Below, in pieces: positions 42,825-52,012 of a DNA stretch of 64,000 nucleotides (its first letter is position 1; each line of letters starts with the position of its first letter). The stretch is from Methanoculleus methanifontis (GTDB taxonomy: Archaea; Halobacteriota; Methanomicrobia; Methanomicrobiales; Methanoculleaceae), in the NCBI RefSeq assembly GCF_030464365.1, contig NZ_VCYI01000002.1:1-64000 (forward strand), read 5' to 3'. Under the pieces are notes generated by a model. The model saw only the letters and a program-made list of their open reading frames with translations, had not been told where the DNA came from and did not search any database. Both the position numbers and the translations under genes were made by a program.

Positions 42825-42900
42825 TACGGCAGGGCCGAACCGACCCTGCCCACGACAATGCGGGAGATATGCGGTTTCCAGTGGAAATGAAGGGGTACAG

Positions 42901-45039
42901 ATGGAGATAGCCGACCTTCCCGTTCCGCCGGATCTTGCCCGGCGCTACATCGACGGCGGGATCACGGAACTCTACCCGCCGCAGGCCGCCTGCGTCGAAG
43001 CGGGCCTTTTTTCGGGAAAGAACCTCCTCGTCGCCATCCCCACCGCGAGCGGCAAGACCCTGGTCGCCGAGATGGCGATGCACCACCAGGCGGGGAGGGG
43101 CGGCAAATGCCTCTACATCGTTCCCCTGCGCGCCCTCGCGAGCGAGAAGTTCGAGGAGTTCTCGGGGAAGGGTCTCCGGGTCGGGATCGCCACCGGCGAC
43201 TTCGACCGGCGGGACGAGTATCTCGGGAGAAACGACATCATCGTCGCGACGAGCGAGAAGGTGGACTCGCTCCTGCGGAACCGGACACCGTGGCTTACGG
43301 AGATCAGCCTGCTGGTCGTCGACGAGGCGCACCTGATCGACGACCCCTCGAGGGGAGCGACGCTCGAGATGGTGATCGCAAAACTCCGCCACAAGAACCC
43401 CGGGATGCAGATCATCGCCCTCTCGGCGACCATCGGGAACCCTGCCGACCTCGCCGGATGGCTGGACGCCGAACTCGTCGAGAGCGAGTGGCGGCCGGTC
43501 GACCTCCGTGAAGGGGTCTTCTTCGAAGACGGCATCCGGTTTGCCGACAGCATCCGCGAGATCAACCGCAAAAGCAAGTACGACGACCTGGACCTCGTCC
43601 TCGACACGGTCGCGGAGGGGGGGCAGTGCCTGGTCTTCGTCAGCTCCCGAAAGAACGCCGAAGCGTTCGCAAAACGAGCGGCATCGGGCTTAAAACTCGC
43701 AAACCCCGTCCTCGCCGGATATGCCGATAAGATACGGTCGAGTGCTTCGACCGATATGGGAAAGACCCTCGCCGCCTGCGTCGCGCAGGGAGCGGCGTTC
43801 CACCACGCGGGGCTCTCGCGGGAGGAGCGGGGGATCGTGGAAGCGGGGTTCCGTGAAGGGCAGATCAAGGTCATCTCCTCCACTCCGACACTTGCGGCCG
43901 GCCTGAACCTCCCCGCCCGGCGGGTGATCGTCCGCGACTACCTCCGGTTCAACGCCGGGGAAGGGATGCTGCCGATCCCGGTTCGGGAGTACCGGCAGAT
44001 GGCCGGCCGGGCCGGGCGGCCGCGCCTCGACCCCTACGGCGAGGCCGTCCTGATCGCGAAATCCGAGGAGATGGTCGACGAGCTCTTCGACTACTACATC
44101 GAAGCGACGGCAGAGGATGTCCGGAGCCGGTGCGCGGACGAGGCGGTTCTCTGCACCCACGTCCTCTCACTCATCGCGACCGGCTTCGCCCGCGAGACGG
44201 GCGAGGTGCTCGGGTTCATGGACGGGACGTTCTACGCCTACCAGGGCGAGAGCCCGCGTGCGCTGAAACGGGCGGTCGACCGGGTGCTCGAGTTCCTGCG
44301 GGAAGCGGAGATGATCACCGAGGTGGGGGAGTGGCTTGAGGCCACGGAGTACGGGTCACTCGTCTCCCGGCTCTACATCGACCCCCGGAGCGCCGAGGTG
44401 ATCGTGAACGCGATGACGCGCCAGAAGGACTACACCGATATCGGCTTCCTTCACCTCCTCTGCACGACGCCGGATATGTCGACGCTCTTTGTCCGCAAAA
44501 ACGATATGTATGCCCTCGACCGGTTCCTGGCCGACCACCGGGAGGAACTCTGGATGGATATCCCCTGGGACGCGGGCGAGGAGTTCGACCGGAGCCTCAA
44601 GACCGCGCTCCTCCTCACCGACTGGGCGGACGAGGTTGGCGAAGACGTGATCTGCGAGCGCTACAGCGTCGGGCCGGGCGATGTCTACGGGATGGTGGAG
44701 AGCGTCGCCTGGCTGGTTCACGCGAGCCGGCACCTCGCCGGGCTCTTCGCGCCGCACCTCTCAGACCCCATCGAGGAGATGGAGCTCCGGACCAAGCACG
44801 GTATCAAGAAGGAGCTCCTGCCGCTCATCAAGCTCCGCGGGATCGGCCGGGTCCGGGCCCGCCGGCTCTTCAACAACGGTATCGACTCGATCGAGGCGCT
44901 CCGGGAGGCGGGCCCGGAGAAGGTCGCAAAGGTTCTCGGGCAGGGGATCGCCGCCCAGATCTTCGAGCAGCTCGAGGGAAGACGGGAGGAGATCGCAGAT
45001 CCCGGCGAGGAGCAGTCGACCCTCTCCCGGTTCGGGTGA
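42901..45039 (+). CDS. hel308: Hel308 DNA helicase
   Basis: A 712-residue superfamily 2 helicase acting on stalled replication forks. Motifs are Walker A '[16 protein letters not shown]', motif II '[10 protein letters not shown]', motif III 'ALSATIGN', '[18 protein letters not shown]' and motif VI '[20 protein letters not shown]'. Next come a winged helix and ratchet domain, and a final helix-hairpin-helix '[17 protein letters not shown]'. The length is normal and no intein interrupts the motifs. The Cgi121 gene follows directly, using the Hel308 stop region as its ribosome site. Confidence 0.95.
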
Positions 45040-45045
45040 ATGAAT

Positions 45046-45567
45046 ATGACAGAGATACCATGCGAGATATACGGGGCGGTCTTTACGGTCGATGACAACG
45101 CCGCCTTCCTCCAGAAGATCCGAACAATCGCCGACGAGTTTGAGACCCACATCATCCTCTTCGACGCCGATCGCCTGGCCGGACGGGATCACGTCGAGGC
45201 GGCGCTCCGGCATGCCTGCAGGTCGTGGACCGGCGGTGAAGCGATCGCGAACTCGCTTGAGATGGAGGCGCTCCTCTACGCCGCGGGAACCCGGCAGTGC
45301 CAGGTGGCCTCGTCGTTCGGGATTCACCCGGGTGAAAACCGGTCGTACGTCGCCGTCTGCCCGCCGGCGCCCGGCGTCCGGGACCGGCTTGCCGATCTCG
45401 TGAGGTTCGTTCACGATGAACAGGGAGGGGAGGAGATCGATCCCGCGAAGCGGGCGCGTCTTGCCGACCTCTTCTCGATCACCCCCGAGGAGGTTGCGGT
45501 GGTCGGGGAGGAGCGGTTCCGCGAACTCGTCCTCGAGCGGGTGGCGCTCCTCGACGTCTACCGCTGA
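45046..45567 (+). CDS. cgi121: Cgi121, KEOPS complex subunit
   Basis: A 173-residue homologue of Cgi121, the KEOPS subunit that binds the CCA end of tRNA. KEOPS makes the t6A modification at position 37. Visible marks are 'EIYGAVFTVDDNAAFLQKI', 'HIILFDADRLAGRDHVEAAL', 'SLEMEALLYAAGTRQCQVAS' and 'GIHPGENRSYVAVCPP'. The start at 45046 is preferred to the ATG at 45040, because GGTGA (ending with the hel308 stop) lies six bases before it. Association with hel308 is a recurrent archaeal arrangement. Confidence 0.9.
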   Translation: MTEIPCEIYGAVFTVDDNAAFLQKIRTIADEFETHIILFDADRLAGRDHVEAALRHACRSWTGGEAIANSLEMEALLYAAGTRQCQVASSFGIHPGENRSYVAVCPPAPGVRDRLADLVRFVHDEQGGEEIDPAKRARLADLFSITPEEVAVVGEERFRELVLERVALLDVYR

Positions 45568-45635
45568 CCCAAACGAATTCCATCTTTACGGCTTCACGTC
45601 TTTTGCGTGAGACTTTGTTGCTGTCCCTATGACAA

Positions 45636-45764
45636 CCTCACGCGAAGAACGACTTCCCCGTTGGGGAAGGAGTTGGAGCACCGAAGGTGCGACCCGCGAA
45701 GAACGCAAAGTTCGATAAAAAGGAGTACAACTCTCCTTCGCGGCTTCGCGCTCTTCGCGTGAGG
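45636..45764. repeat. GCGAAG/CTTCGC hairpin element, copy 5
   Basis: The outer arms CCTCACGCGAAGA (45636-45648) and TCTTCGCGTGAGG (45752-45764) are a perfect 13-bp inverted repeat. Within them are smaller stems, for example CTTCCCCGTTGGGGAAG and GCACCGAAGGTGC. The gap 45568-46092 holds no gene but contains this copy, copy 6 and a GC-rich hairpin. Confidence 0.8.
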
Positions 45765-45910
45765 CTGTGAAGTCGTCCCAAAAGTGCCACGTGGTTGAAG
45801 ATTCACTGGGTTCAGAATGCAATTACGAGCGTTCATAACAAATTGAACGCTCTCCTGTATCAAATTGCTGAAACGGCTTCCCATTGGCTATCGCCACGCG
45901 GGGGAGGGAC

Positions 45911-45933
45911 CGGGAGGGGGTGCCCCCCTCCCG
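45911..45933. other. Strong GC hairpin
   Basis: CGGGAGGGGG, loop TGC, CCCCCTCCCG: a perfect 10-bp stem with a three-base loop. A GTTTTG stretch follows about ten bases later. It could act as a terminator or RNA-processing signal, but no gene ends close by. Confidence 0.5.
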
Positions 45934-45981
45934 GCAGAGGCGTTTTGGGATGGCCTCTGTATTACTATCAACAATCGATAT

Positions 45982-46063
45982 CGCAAGCGAAGTCGAGAAG
46001 AACGCGAAGACCCGGTTGATTGAGAGTTACGCCCCTTCGCGGCTTCGCGTTCTTTGCGTGAGG
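45982..46063. repeat. GCGAAG/CTTCGC hairpin element, copy 6
   Basis: The left arm CGCAAGCGAAGTCGAGAAG and the following AACGCGAAGA pair with the right arm CTTCGCGGCTTCGCGTTC plus TTTGCGTGAGG, with several mismatches. It lies 30 bases from the 3' end of the MoaB-like gene and may form the 3' end of its transcript. Confidence 0.7.
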
Positions 46064-46092
46064 TGGCTATACCTCACAGGCGAAATGGTCCG

Positions 46093-46590
46093 CTACCGCT
46101 GACCTGCCCCGGCATGGGTCAGGATGTGCCGGATCTCGGGGATGATGATCTCCCGTGCCGCGAGGGTGACCGCCTTCGTCGAGCCCGGGATGCAGAAGAC
46201 CACCCGGCCGCCGACGACCCCGGCGATCGCTCGCGAGAGGATCGCGGCCGTCCCGATCTCGTCATAGCTCTTCAGCCGGAAGAGTTCCCCGAACCCGTCG
46301 ATCGTCTTTTCAAGGAGCGGTGCGACGGCTTCTATGGTCACATCGTCGGAGGTGAGCCCGGTGCCCCCGGTGACGATGACGCAGTTCGCATGCGAAAGCG
46401 CCACGCGGACCTCGGCACTGATCCGTTCCTGGTCGTCGGGGACGACGGCATAGTGGGTCACCTCGATCTCCGCGGCGGAGAGAAGGTCGATGAGCGTCTT
46501 CCCGCTGGTGTCGGTCTCGGGCTTCCGGGTCGAGGAGACGGTGATAATGGCACCGGTTACAGTAAGCGGTTTAAGATGACTGCTGTCCAT
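46093..46590 (-). CDS. moaB: MoaB/Mog-family molybdopterin biosynthesis protein
   Basis: A 165-residue protein of the MoaB/Mog fold, which adenylylates molybdopterin ahead of metal insertion to make the Mo or W cofactor used by formate and formylmethanofuran dehydrogenases. Motifs are 'ITVSSTRKPETDTSGK', the pterin-binding 'VIVTGGTGLTSDDVTIEAV' and 'VVFCIPGSTKAVTLAAREI'. It is a stand-alone gene transcribed away from the candidate replication origin, whose first ORB lies about 70 bases upstream of its start. Confidence 0.93.
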   Translation of the reverse strand: MDSSHLKPLTVTGAIITVSSTRKPETDTSGKTLIDLLSAAEIEVTHYAVVPDDQERISAEVRVALSHANCVIVTGGTGLTSDDVTIEAVAPLLEKTIDGFGELFRLKSYDEIGTAAILSRAIAGVVGGRVVFCIPGSTKAVTLAAREIIIPEIRHILTHAGAGQR

Positions 46591-46660
46591 GGGATCTTCC
46601 AGTATTCCTGTACCACGTATTTTACTTCTTTCTATCCCCTGTCAAGGAAAGTTCAATCCC

Positions 46661-46683
46661 CGACCCCTTTGTTTCGTGTGGAG
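46661..46683 (-). other. Origin recognition box (ORB) 1, inverted
   Basis: On the minus strand the site reads CTCCACACGAAACAAAGGGG followed by TCG. It has the GAAAC core and the G-string that mark ORB elements bound by Orc1/Cdc6. It points opposite to ORB2 and ORB3, so the three bracket the purine/pyrimidine switch region. Confidence 0.8.
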
Positions 46684-47560
46684 AAAGAAAGGGCTCCGCG
46701 GGCCGGGTTCAGGAGACAGCAGAGAGGAAAGGAATCCGAATGCAGGATATCCGGTGAGTAAACCAGTTAATCTATGAAGATTGACGAGATCGCGCTCATG
46801 AACCCGGAGAGGATCCGGACGAAAAAAGGACGGAAAGCAACGGATCAGGGTAGGACAGGAGAAAGTTGAATGGGCCGGATCGGAAGAGAGCAAGACGGGA
46901 TAAGGCGAGAGTGAGAAGGATCGAGGTGGAACGGGGTAAAATGGGAGAGAAGTGGAACAAGGCAGGACTTAGCCGAATAAGCGGGATAGGGATAAGACAA
47001 GACGGAATAAAACTGGAGAGACGCAAATTGGGGCGGAATGGTGCATAAAGAAGTCGAATAAGCGAAACCGGGTAAGTTAAAACAGGATATGGGCAGGAAG
47101 CGATGGATCGGGTTGGAATGGAACAGAGTGAAGTTGAACAGGCTGGATCAGGATAGGATAAGACAAGATAAGGGTGGAAAGAGACGGATTTAGACAGAAC
47201 AGGGTGGAACAAGACAGAAAGGGAGAGGAAGAGGAAGAGAAACAAATCCTGATAGAGTGAGATTTGACAGGAATGAGGAAAGATGGAACAGGTGATCGGA
47301 CAGGACACAGGATTGGATCCCTCTTTCCCAGTTTTCCCTCTTTGGTCAGTCTCCTCTATCCCTTCTGCTTCCTGTCCCTTTTCTGCTGGTTACTTCGTGA
47401 CCTGGCCCCATTTTCCTGGTTATTCGCCATAAAAGCCCATAATATCCTTTTCTTTTGGTTTTATGCTTCCTTTTTCCACTTGTTTTCCCTTTTACGCTTT
47501 ATTGTCCCTCTTTAATCCATTTTAACTCCGGTTTCTCCTTTTTGTTTTCTCTGTACGTAT
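46684..47560. other. Candidate origin core: polypurine tract switching to polypyrimidine
   Basis: From about 46690 to 47315 the plus strand is strongly purine-rich, built from decayed short units such as GGATA, AGACA and GGAAC. From about 47318 to 47550 it turns pyrimidine-rich (many CTTT, TTCC, CCTT). The change happens within a few bases. No gene is credible; apparent frames here are low-complexity. The right end becomes AT-rich (AAAACTTTATATCTTTAG near 47566). Lying between inverted ORBs and next to orc1, this is the best candidate for the unwinding and start region. Confidence 0.65.
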
Positions 47561-47653
47561 ACGATAAAACTTTATATCTTTAGTTGCAGAGGTACACATG
47601 AATATCGGCATCAGTTTTTGATTGAATGATACACCCGGTGTATCGTCATCAGG

Positions 47654-47680
47654 GTTCCACTCGAAACAAAGGGGTCGGGG
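47654..47680 (+). other. Origin recognition box (ORB) 2
   Basis: The site reads GTTCCACTCGAAACAAAGGG followed by GTCGGGG. It shares the CCACnnGAAAC core and G-string of the others, and its 'AAACAAAGGGGTCGGGG' tail is identical to that of ORB1 but in the opposite direction. Confidence 0.85.
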
Positions 47681-47769
47681 CGATCGCATCGATCCCACCC
47701 TTCCTCTTCCTCCTAGACTATCTCAACCTGACCGGTTTATCGGGATCTTCTGGTGATCCAACCTTCGAA

Positions 47770-47792
47770 GTTCCACTGGAAACGAAGGGGTT
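47770..47792 (+). other. Origin recognition box (ORB) 3, next to orc1/cdc6
   Basis: The site reads GTTCCACTGGAAACGAAGGG followed by GTT. This is essentially the canonical euryarchaeal ORB consensus. It lies about 80 bases before the orc1/cdc6 start and overlaps the region where that gene's promoter should be (a CATATTAAG element near 47813), so Orc1 could repress its own gene. Confidence 0.88.
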
Positions 47793-47868
47793 ATCTGTCT
47801 CTAAAGCGATCATATTAAGAGTCCTCGACACGAAAATTTCCTGCCCTGGCAACCTCCCCGGTGACACC

Positions 47869-49152
47869 ATGTCGGACGATAAAACGAGCCCAATGGGGTT
47901 ATTCAAAAAATACCTGACCAATAGACGTATATTTAAGAATAGAGAAGTCCTCCGTCATAACTATCGTCCCCAGATCCTCCCTCACCGGAAGCCACAGATC
48001 GATGAAATCGCCTCCATTCTCGCACCCGCCCTTACGGACGAGACTCCATCGAATATTCTCATCTACGGCAAGACCGGAACCGGGAAGACAGCGTCCGTCA
48101 GGTACGTGGGAACGGAACTCGAGAACGCGAGCGCCCTCGCCGGGACGAAGTGCAAGATCGTCCACCTCAACTGCGAGGTGATCGACACCCAGTACCGGGT
48201 CCTCGCCCAGATCGCAAACGGTCTCGACGACGCCGACGAGCACTCGAGCGACAGCACGAGGAACCACATCCCCATGACCGGGTGGCCGACCGACCAGGTC
48301 TACGCGGAGCTGAAGAACCAGCTCGAGAGCAACGGCGGGGTCATAGTCATCATCCTCGACGAGATCGACAAACTCGTCAAGAAGAGCGGCGACGATACCC
48401 TCTACAACCTCACCCGGATCAACTCCGACCTCAAGTTCGCCAAAGTGAGTATCATCGGGATCTCAAACGACCTCCGGTTCACCGATTTCCTGGATCCCCG
48501 TGTCCTCTCTTCGCTCTCCGAAGAGGAGATCGTCTTCCCCCCCTACAACGCCCCGCAACTCTGCGACATTCTCCAGCAGAGGGCAGATATGGCGTTCGTT
48601 GAGGGCGCTCTCGACGAGACGGTCATCCCGCTCTGTGCGGCGCTCGCGGCCCAGGAGCACGGCGACGCACGGCGGGCGCTCGACCTCCTCCGGGTCTCGG
48701 GCGAACTCGCGGACCGCGAGGACGCCGCGGGCGTGACCGAGAAGCACGTCCGGATGGCCCAGGAGAAGATCGAGACCGACAGCATGGTCGAGTGCATCTC
48801 CACCCTCCCGACCCAGAGCAAGGCGGTCCTCTACGCGATGCTGATCCTCGAGCAGATGGGCAAACGGATCTTCACGAGCGGGGAGGTCACGGTGGTCTAC
48901 CGTGAGATAGCCCGGATCATCGATCTCGATGTCCTGACGCACCGCCGGATCACCGACCTCATCTCCGAGCTCAACATGCTCGGTGTCATCAACACCCGGG
49001 TCATCTCGCGGGGCCGCTACGGCCGGACGAAGGAGATGTGGTTCGACGCAGCGACGAGCAAGATCGAGGAGGTCGTCACCCGTGACCCGAGGCTTGACGA
49101 CGAGAGGCTCAAGAAACTCGATATCAACCGATTGAGAGCAATGTTCAGGTGA
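47869..49152 (+). CDS. cdc6: Orc1/Cdc6 replication initiator
   Basis: A 427-residue AAA+ initiator. It has Walker A 'IYGKTGTGKTASVRYV', Walker B 'VIIILDEIDKLVKKSG', sensor 1 'SIIGISNDLRF', sensor 2 near 'HGDARRALDLLRVSGELA' and a C-terminal winged helix ('HRRITDLISELNMLGVINTR') that contacts ORB DNA. The Met at 47869 is chosen because conserved sequence starts there. The frame is open for 81 further codons upstream, but that stretch contains ORB2 and ORB3 and is not protein-like. Three ORBs lie upstream and two more lie 1.8-2.9 kb downstream. Confidence 0.94.
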   Translation: MSDDKTSPMGLFKKYLTNRRIFKNREVLRHNYRPQILPHRKPQIDEIASILAPALTDETPSNILIYGKTGTGKTASVRYVGTELENASALAGTKCKIVHLNCEVIDTQYRVLAQIANGLDDADEHSSDSTRNHIPMTGWPTDQVYAELKNQLESNGGVIVIILDEIDKLVKKSGDDTLYNLTRINSDLKFAKVSIIGISNDLRFTDFLDPRVLSSLSEEEIVFPPYNAPQLCDILQQRADMAFVEGALDETVIPLCAALAAQEHGDARRALDLLRVSGELADREDAAGVTEKHVRMAQEKIETDSMVECISTLPTQSKAVLYAMLILEQMGKRIFTSGEVTVVYREIARIIDLDVLTHRRITDLISELNMLGVINTRVISRGRYGRTKEMWFDAATSKIEEVVTRDPRLDDERLKKLDINRLRAMFR

Positions 49153-49658: not shown

Positions 49659-50819
49659 TTGAGGGATTTCGTCTCGAAACGGGCCCGCGCCATACCTCCT
49701 TCGGGTATCCGGAAGTTCTTTGATATCGCCCAGACGATGGAAGACGTCATATCCCTGGGCGTCGGGGAACCGGACTTCGTGACCCCCTGGTGTGTCTGCG
49801 AGGCCTCCATCTATTCCATTGAGCAGGGGTCGACCGCGTATACCTCGAACAAGGGGACGCCCCGGCTCCGGGACTCTCTCAGCCGCTACCTCGACACCCG
49901 CTTTTCTACACGCTACGACCCTGAAGAAGAGATCATCGTCACCTGCGGCGTCTCGGAGGCGGTCGACGTCGCCATCCGGACCGTCGTCGACCCCGGCGAT
50001 GAGGTGCTGGTCGCCGAGCCCTGCTACGTCTCCTACAACCCCTGCGTCTCCCTTGCCGGAGGGATCCCGGTGCCGGTCCTCTGCCGGGCGGAGGATGAGT
50101 TCCGGTTGACGGCCGACGCTCTTGCGGAGAGCATCACTCCTCGGACGAAGGCACTGATTGCAAACTTCCCGAACAACCCCACCGGCGGGGTGATGCAGGA
50201 GGCGGACTGGCACGCGATCGCCGACCTCCTCGTCGACCACGACCTCCTCCTCATCAGCGACGAGGTTTACGCCGAGCTCACCTACGACGGCGACCACTTT
50301 TCGCCGGCAAGGATCCCCGAACTCCGCGACCGGACAATCACCTTGAACGGGTTTTCAAAGGCCTTTGCGATGACCGGGTGGCGGATCGGTTACCTCTGCG
50401 CTCCGCCCGAGATCACCGCGGCAGCTTTGAAGATCCACCAGTACGTCGCGCTCTGTGCCCCTGTCATGGGACAGATCGCGGCCTACGAAGCGCTCCGGAA
50501 CGGGGAGGATGAGAAGGATGCGATGGTCAGAGAGTACCGTCTCCGGCGCAACCTCTTCGTCGACGGGCTGAACAAACTCGGTCTTACCTGCCACGTCCCG
50601 AAGGGTGCATTCTACGCCTTCCCGTCGGTGGAGAGCACCGGCATGACCGATGTCGAGTTTGCGGAGGGGCTCCTCCGGGAGCAGCACGTCGCGGTTGTCC
50701 CGGGAAGTGCCCTCGGCCCCTCCGGTGCCGGGCACGTGCGGTGCGCCTACGCGGTCTCGCGAGACGATCTCAAGGAGGCCCTCTCCCGGATGGGAACCTT
50801 TCTTGGTTCAATAAAATAA
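49659..50819 (+). CDS. Class I/II (AspC-like) aminotransferase
   Basis: A 386-residue PLP enzyme of aminotransferase fold type I. The PLP lysine is in 'LNGFSKAFAMTGWRIGY' and the phosphate/pyridine site is 'NFPNNPTGGVM', with 'ISDEVYAELTYDG'. Substrate is likely aspartate or an aromatic/branched amino acid, but not decidable here. The TTG at 49659 is preferred to GTG at 49650 because GAGGTGA ends five bases before the TTG, and the protein then begins as relatives do ('RDFVSKRARAIPPSGIRKFF'). It is cotranscribed with the Lrp regulator. Confidence 0.9.
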   Translation: MRDFVSKRARAIPPSGIRKFFDIAQTMEDVISLGVGEPDFVTPWCVCEASIYSIEQGSTAYTSNKGTPRLRDSLSRYLDTRFSTRYDPEEEIIVTCGVSEAVDVAIRTVVDPGDEVLVAEPCYVSYNPCVSLAGGIPVPVLCRAEDEFRLTADALAESITPRTKALIANFPNNPTGGVMQEADWHAIADLLVDHDLLLISDEVYAELTYDGDHFSPARIPELRDRTITLNGFSKAFAMTGWRIGYLCAPPEITAAALKIHQYVALCAPVMGQIAAYEALRNGEDEKDAMVREYRLRRNLFVDGLNKLGLTCHVPKGAFYAFPSVESTGMTDVEFAEGLLREQHVAVVPGSALGPSGAGHVRCAYAVSRDDLKEALSRMGTFLGSIK

Positions 50820-50924: not shown

Positions 50925-50947
50925 GAACCCCTTTATTTCCACTGGAG
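50925..50947 (-). other. Origin recognition box (ORB) 4, inverted
   Basis: On the minus strand the site reads CTCCAGTGGAAATAAAGGGG followed by TTC. It pairs with ORB5, which faces the other way about 1 kb to the right. If the intervening insertion sequence and its target repeat are removed, the two lie about 195 bases apart. The DNA between (50948-51133) holds no gene and is moderately AT-rich near 50950 and 51070. Confidence 0.82.
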
Positions 50948-51133: not shown

Positions 51134-51977
51134 GAGGTCATCCCAATATTCTCCCGATCATGACACTACATGCCAAGTGAATCAATCCCATGAATGAGTG
51201 CTCATATCGCTCGTATCGGGGAGTGATCTTCTTGAACGCCTCAATCCAGCTGAAGAACCGTTCTACCGCATTGCGCTTTTTATAGAGTTCTGGATCAAAC
51301 CAGAATGGCCTCCCTCGTTTCGGCTGTTTCCGGGATCTCCGGTTGACCGGTATATTACTCTTTATTCTTCTTTTACGGTTGTACTGACGGATTTCCCGGG
51401 CATCGTAGGCTGCATCTGCGGAGATGATTGCAGGACGCTCCTGCACTTCGGGAATCTCAAACGCTTCGAGGGTTGGCTCGTAGAGCCGTGAATCATGGAC
51501 ATTTGCCGGTGCAACCGTGCAGGCAAGCGGGAGGCCGTTCCGATCGACCAGAGCACTCAGCTTATTCCCGTTTACCTTTTTATAGCCATCATAGCCCGCT
51601 GATCCCCTTTTTTAGCCGGGATATCCTTGGTATCCGTCGCACAATGTGATAGATCGATTTTCTTGATCGCATACCCGGATCGGAGCAGGTCGAGGAAGAT
51701 CGCCTGGTACACTCCTTTCTCGCAGAGTTCGAGATGGTACCGATGAACCGTCGATTTGGTGCCATATTTCGCCGGTACATCGAGCCAGGAGCACCCGGTG
51801 GTCAGAACGTACAGGATACCGTTGAACAGCCTGCGGGGATCACATCGGGGTCGACCGATATGCGGCTTTGTTGGGGGGAGGTATTTCTGAACAATCTCCC
51901 AGAGATCATCGTCAATTTCCCGGAATGCCATGACCCCCGGTTTTATCTAAGGGGTCTTATAATTTTAGGATCACCTC
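51134..51977 (-). mobile_element. IS5-family (IS427-like) insertion sequence, 844 bp
   Basis: Imperfect terminal inverted repeats occur at both ends: GAGGTCATCCCAATATT at 51134-51150 and, reversed, GAGGTGATCCTAAAATT at 51977-51961 (14 of 17 match). A 3-bp direct repeat CAT flanks the element (51131-51133 and 51978-51980), as expected for target duplication. It carries one transposase expressed through a frameshift. It sits between two facing ORB boxes, 13 bases from ORB5. Confidence 0.88.
51138..51931 (-). CDS. IS5-family DDE transposase made by -1 frameshift
   Basis: The first frame (51931 to 51572) starts 'MAFREIDDDLWEIVQKYLPP' and contains the first acidic residue in 'KKIDLSHCATDTKD'. At AAAAAAGGGG (51613-51604, minus strand) a -1 shift leads to a second frame. 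That frame continues without interruption, 'RGSAGYDGYKKVNGNKL', with 'ISADAAYDAREIRQYN' and the final 'KKRNAVERFFSWIEAFKKIT', the D and E of the DDE triad. The fused product has about 264 residues, the normal IS427-group length. All catalytic parts are present and no decay is visible, so the element may still be active. Confidence 0.88.
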
Positions 51978-51989
51978 CATGAAAATAAG

Positions 51990-52012
51990 TTTCCACTGGA
52001 AACGAAGGGGTC
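51990..52012 (+). other. Origin recognition box (ORB) 5
   Basis: The site reads TTTCCACTGGAAACGAAGGG followed by GTC. It shares a long exact core, TTCCACTGGAAACGAAGGGG, with ORB3. It lies immediately to the right of the insertion sequence and faces ORB4. Confidence 0.87.

Follow-up and report, generated by a model that had tools for sequence, protein, structure and literature searches.

Archaeal origins of replication are usually described as ORB elements arranged around an AT-rich core. The locus described here, from a Methanoculleus-type genome (2.61 Mb, 30 contigs), resembles the orc1/cdc6-adjacent archaeal oriC (PMC4010727; Ori-Finder 2, PMC4164010) in having Methanomicrobia-motif ORBs inverted around a core, a neighbouring orc1/cdc6 gene and a skew extreme. 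However, in place of the usual AT-rich core between ORBs, it carries a core of 971 bp with two polar, periodic arms and an overall GC content of 46% (up to 57% in the relative G002), in which an AT-rich block at 47553-47590 is conserved. It also differs in possessing a second ORB pair 3 kb downstream. Coordinates refer to the window, the whole stretch of 64,000 nucleotides that was analysed (G000:C12:1-64000).

In the oriC1 of Sulfolobus islandicus (ORB2/ORB3, DUE, ucm), ORBs likewise flank a core next to an orc1 gene, and the inter-ORB sequence can carry an essential non-ORB element (PMC12141716). That origin, in contrast, measures ~130 bp in all, and its ucm is a protein-binding motif, not a set of long polar arms (PMC12141716).

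The DnaA-trio of bacterial origins can serve as an analogy only. It consists of single-strand trinucleotide repeats bound by DnaA on one strand. The present locus shares with it short, degenerate, strand-polar repeats beside initiator boxes (PMC8287927), but its repeats are pentamers that continue for hundreds of bases, their period is of the duplex type and the initiator is archaeal; no trinucleotide period was found beside the initiator box, the period being 5.05 bp and not 3. The pyrimidine-rich arm resembles archaeal nucleosome-positioning sequences in its 10-bp alternation of A/T-rich and G/C-rich steps (PMC3691661), whereas here the alternation is confined to one strand-asymmetric pyrimidine tract. 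Searches of the open-access literature did not turn up any archaeal origin described as having purine/pyrimidine arms.

Layout and identity of the origin

The locus occupies a gene-free stretch of 1.28 kb (46591-47868), bounded by a MoaB-like gene and orc1/cdc6. Its features, with those of the surrounding region, are as follows.

42877-42896, plus strand: distal upstream ORB, just before a helicase-like gene starting at 42901
46093-46590, minus strand: MoaB/MogA-like molybdopterin-binding gene, left flank of the origin (PF00994, E 4e-35)
46663-46682, minus strand: ORB, left inverted arm (2 mismatches to the motif)
46683-46805, no strand: left module beside the minus ORB, aligning among close relatives
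46683-47317, plus strand: purine arm, 74% purine, with RRRRY pentamers in a degenerate array of period 5.05 bp that is most distinct over 46847-47289
47317-47318, no strand: purine-to-pyrimidine switch point
47318-47552, plus strand: pyrimidine arm, 23% purine, with T-rich patches about every 10.0 bp
47553-47590, plus strand: AT-rich block with a BRE/TATA-like sequence, orc1 promoter and candidate unwinding element; position kept
47591-47655, plus strand: conserved leader element AGAGGTACACATGA...TCATCA with a short inverted repeat GATACACCCGGTGTATC
47656-47675, plus strand: ORB, first on the right side (1 mismatch)
47772-47791, plus strand: ORB, second on the right side (0 mismatches)
47869-49152, plus strand: orc1/cdc6 initiator gene, 427 aa (Cdc6 lid, Cdc6_C and AAA domains; start kept in relatives)
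50927-50946, minus strand: ORB of the second, downstream inverted pair (motif match)
51992-52011, plus strand: its partner (motif match)

ORBs were sought with the published Methanomicrobia motif TCCA[GC]T[GT]GAAA[CT][AG]A[AT]GGGGT (PMC4164010), allowing at most 3 mismatches. At this threshold the window contains six matches, against 0.04 expected by chance. A preliminary description of this DNA had recognised three ORBs bracketing the core, and these are real (46663 minus, 47656 plus and 47772 plus); the matches at 42877 (plus), 50927 (minus) and 51992 (plus) had escaped it. The core is enclosed by an inverted pair of 25-nt arms (46658-46682 and 47656-47680) that are 96% complementary and contain one ORB each. 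With a genus-level ORB pattern, six of the seven sites in the whole genome fall within 9.1 kb at the orc1 locus, while the reversed pattern, used as a control, gave zero sites in that genome. The same clustering is seen in six relatives, complete chromosomes included. Across the genus the ORBs follow the order +, -, +, +, -, + at about -4, -1, -0.2, -0.1, +3.06 and +3.28 kb from orc1, with the distal upstream ORB kept at about -3.7 to -5.0 kb.

Nucleotide skew turns in the same region. The cumulative keto skew of contig C12 reaches its minimum at 50,342 and then climbs to the contig end. In a relative with a complete genome (G003; 1.6 Mb sampled for skew and switch, 61% of the genome), keto skew has its minimum in the 20-kb stretch with orc1 and GC skew in the stretch just before it, with maxima at 1.31-1.51 Mb, about opposite. 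The inflection that the preliminary description had anticipated is therefore present as a keto turn at the locus in both C12 and G003, whereas GC skew alone is weak on C12, where its minimum lies at 35 kb.

The locus thus combines clustered lineage ORBs, an adjacent initiator gene and a nucleotide-skew extreme, the features by which an oriC is recognised. Its assignment as the chromosomal replication origin, already suggested in the preliminary description, is well supported by these sequence features. ORB clustering together with the skew turn is the sign of one dominant bidirectional origin, and the orc1 locus would accordingly be the main Orc1-dependent origin and probably the sole one.

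Two polar and periodic arms

Between the inverted ORBs, the plus strand is 74% purine over 46680-47317 and 23% purine over 47318-47552. The switch at 47317, previously placed near 47316, is the sharpest in the window (8 sd). Scored over 250 bases on each side, it reaches 1.05 within 447 kb of DNA from the same genome, where the next best site scores 0.53. The homologous switch in G003 scores 0.92 and is the sharpest in the 1.6 Mb sampled; second place (0.58) goes to the left edge of that tract itself, and the best unrelated site follows at 0.56. In that sample the two arms are also the two top-scoring purine/pyrimidine segments.

Each arm has its own period. RRRRYRRRRY occurs 27 times in the purine arm, against a shuffle mean of 3.7 (maximum 11 in 500 shuffles), and the purine/pyrimidine period of 5.05 bp has a normalised power of 24.5, whereas none of 4000 random 600-bp segments of the genome exceeds 9.8. 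In the pyrimidine arm, T-rich and C-rich patches alternate with a W/S period of 10.0 bp (power 15.5 versus a 99.9th percentile of 10.7). Five base pairs correspond to half a helical turn and ten to a full turn; the two periods therefore suggest duplex shape or phased binding. Predicted curvature is only moderate, at 92 degrees per 120 bp from wedge parameters, which lies between the 99th and 99.9th percentiles. Autocorrelation of purines and pyrimidines in the window drops with lag, so that a decayed pentamer array stays a fair reading of the purine arm. The preliminary description had seen a decayed array of short units in this half, as the RRRRYRRRRY excess bears out; it had the pentamer units right, but missed the 10-bp period and the greater constancy of the pyrimidine arm (see below).

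Among relatives, the 5-bp signal is significant in G006, G004, G003, L040 and G005, and is confined to the clade of the window and G005. Of the 24 species tested, 13 show a significant W/S signal (p<0.03) at 9.75-10.6 bp, among them one from another genus (L103); several species lack the 10-bp signal.

The tract was also considered as a gene. A 170-aa reverse ORF (46796-47308) overlies the purine arm, as expected because that strand is pyrimidine-rich; it has no Pfam match and the arm is unalignable between species, and the coding reading was rejected. An RNA gene was likewise rejected, since an Rfam search of 45500-48200 gave only a chance-level match outside the tract.

Distribution and sequence turnover of the arms

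The minus/plus ORB pair and the TATA-like orc1 promoter block, followed in its genus form by AGAGGTACACATGACTAT..TCATCA, are found across Methanomicrobiales, with the AT-rich block kept ~75-90 bp before the first plus ORB across the order. In most other genera the inter-ORB spacer measures 100-300 bp and lacks a strong switch. Core Methanoculleus mostly have spacers of 437-1043 bp, and the direction of the switch, from purine into pyrimidine, is shared by all members with a long spacer. The orc1 tree places the gain of the arms on a 100/100 branch at the base of core Methanoculleus, and the outgroups L052, L053 and L056 are without them. As the tract is absent in other ORB-keeping Methanomicrobiales, it is a trait of the lineage and does not belong to origins in general.

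Two small-genome Methanoculleus (1.9-2.0 Mb), G010 with a 216-bp spacer and G030 with a 325-bp spacer (represented in the orc1 tree by its copy L051), lack the arms and share one long branch. They are nested within the arm-bearing clade, and loss is therefore probable, their long-branch placement being unsure. As these two and the nearest outgroups lack the arms, an ORB origin can do without them.

In Methanofollis-type genomes (f4) the spacers are long and contain just a short purine block beside the minus ORB, and separate one-sided or two-sided tracts occur in L098, L103 and L110. In L110 (Methanoregulaceae), an unrelated pyrimidine tract lies between the ORBs at about -816 to -560 of orc1 (9% purine over 256 bp, with repeats of TCTTCTCTCTCTCCTG); its polar tract is apparently independent in origin. 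L098 (Methanomicrobiaceae) has a purine tract at about -570 to -313 of orc1 (84% purine, with a 43-bp tandem repeat), just before the AT-rich block, which is the place of the Methanoculleus pyrimidine arm.

Within core Methanoculleus, polarity is kept while sequence is replaced. The purine arm of the window aligns to relatives over at most 2% of its length; nearly all core relatives can be aligned in the promoter/leader block, and the aligned fraction of the left module (46683-46805) is 0.56-0.98 within the clade of the window. The arms form 14 purine and 13 pyrimidine clusters that are mutually unalignable, with polarity reversed in none. Pyrimidine content is 70-86% in 12 of the 13 pyrimidine-arm clusters, and the purine arm is at least 62% purine in 9 of 14 and weak (49-59%) in the other 5. 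The more constant of the two is therefore the pyrimidine arm, which immediately precedes the orc1 promoter. The two-armed form is strongest in the clade of the window, G002, G005, L038 and L055. Persistence of the asymmetry despite sequence change, which had been put forward as a check on the origin, thus holds in core Methanoculleus; the clusters share ancestry and are therefore not independent trials.

A possible role for the arms

We lean towards the view that this main Orc1-dependent origin carries its polar, periodic arms as a maintained duplex-structure element, a role that we infer from their pattern. Orc1 would bind the inverted ORBs flanking the core and open the AT-rich block at the orc1 promoter, where MCM would be loaded, in line with what is established for archaeal origins. 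In core Methanoculleus the two strand-polar, helically periodic arms would have enlarged this core, with T-rich patches at each 10 bp and purine pentamers at each half turn that may set curvature or histone placement between the distant ORBs. If replication started bidirectionally at the switch, the lagging-strand template would be pyrimidine-rich to the left and right alike, and the 3'-to-5' MCM helicase would track a strand that is purine-rich on either side. Single-strand-binding protein and primase should both be well served by such a pyrimidine-rich template.

There are two HMf-type histones in this genome, 10-bp repeats of A/T dinucleotides position archaeal nucleosomes (PMC3691661), and the Sulfolobus primase is reportedly activated by thymine-rich bubbles (De Falco 2004, as cited in PMC12770985). 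For these reasons a DNA-shape or chromatin element with helpful polarity is favoured. Counting against it are the armless members of the genus and outgroups noted above, the weakness of the purine arm in 5 of 14 clusters, the narrow spread of the 5-bp signal, the species that lack the 10-bp signal and the only moderate predicted curvature. More tentatively, the two phased arms may constitute an archaeal origin module, selected jointly for bending or chromatin and for strand-specific initiation, gained once at the base of core Methanoculleus and kept by pattern, not by sequence; this fuller version is possible rather than probable.

Alternative explanations

The main rival to a DNA-shape or chromatin element is neutral repeat turnover, in which the origin is real and the arms are functionless, purine-rich repeats amplified by slippage in an unconstrained spacer, their polarity going back to a polar founding insert. 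This account is rather unlikely in our estimate, and several observations agree with it. The arms change far faster than 4-fold sites; many relatives carry species-specific tandem arrays of 25-88 bp, through which composition could be carried along passively, and this counts against maintained arms; and the pentamer pattern of the window, with its falling autocorrelation, is like that of a decayed pentanucleotide array. However, the window itself has no tandem array above threshold, a 70-86% pyrimidine content is held in 12 unalignable pyrimidine-arm clusters, and the 10-bp W/S period recurs both in unalignable clusters and in a distant genus. Substitutions in the purine arm are also at odds with free turnover: close pairs show 52 transitions to 6 transversions, against 69:59 at orc1 4-fold sites (p 9e-7); for the pyrimidine arm the ratio is 23:10 (p 0.02 in comparison with the purine arm). 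These counts come from five non-overlapping pairs with few substitutions, and 4-fold sites are an imperfect neutral reference. An alignment artefact behind this excess was rejected, as simulated evolution followed by realignment returned the input ratio.

A transcriptional role, in which the arms would be nucleosome-free or upstream DNA for the divergent promoters of orc1 and moaB and would be linked to the origin only incidentally, appears improbable. In its favour, the pyrimidine arm stops directly before the conserved BRE/TATA block of orc1, and towards moaB it is the minus strand that is rich in pyrimidines. Yet the orc1 promoter block, conserved across the order, works without arms, and no second such switch exists in the 447 kb of the genome itself or the 1.6 Mb of the relative.

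We give very little credence to the asymmetry having been left by strand-biased mutation during replication, concentrated where replication starts: the switch does coincide with the turn in skew, and in A/T its sign is that of the genome as a whole (a T-rich leading strand), but the leading strand is G+T rich genome-wide while the strand leaving the switch each way is C+T rich, the G/C part thus being opposite to the genome-wide replication skew and not simply fork mutation bias, and outgroups with the same ORBs show no asymmetry. Opening of the origin by the purine arm through a triplex or R-loop, as the preliminary description proposed, or through a G-quadruplex, is given equally little credence, although the strand is long, purine-rich and has GG-rich units. 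Triplex potential is not supported, as polypurine mirror repeats stay within the shuffle range (2 in the window, shuffle maximum 3; zero in three relatives) and a pyrimidine at every fifth base breaks triplex runs; nor is quadruplex potential, no canonical (G3) motif having been found in the window tract.

Returning to the arms as a maintained duplex-structure element, the polarity of this long core outlives its sequence genus-wide, in contrast to the usual description of archaeal origins. If the arms are functional, origins could be specified by strand pattern and DNA shape instead of motif. Natural relatives with and without arms make arm function testable.

Other features of the locus

Tandem units in the arms of relatives are often 41-46 bp long (G003 44, G009 44, L036 42, L037 42, L044 42, L055 45, L098 43), about four helical turns.

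The downstream inverted ORB pair, 3 kb past orc1, is ~218 bp apart in nearly all relatives, which resembles the spacing of the main ORB pair in outgroups (217 bp). In the window the spacing is 1,065 bp, because a transposase-bearing insertion (ORFs at 51138-51931, minus strand) splits the pair.

A solitary ORB, TCCAGTGGAAATCAAGGGGT, lies far from the origin in intergenic DNA and is identical in this genome and three relatives (G000:C25:193991; G003:C1:764379; G007:C1:632896; G009:C1:944365). In the genome of the window it is upstream of an ABC-transporter gene.

The orc1 leader is conserved over 47569-47655, where the TATA-like block is followed by AGAGGTACACATG and then by a possible ORF of 7-8 codons, reading MNIGISF or MTIVISF before a stop, and an inverted repeat with repeated TCATCA. 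This leader could be a leader peptide or a regulator site. Further to the left, a CGCGGCTTCGCG..TTCTTTGCGTGAGG-like repeat is scattered through the intergenic stretch 45587-46060 in several copies, which lie in both orientations.
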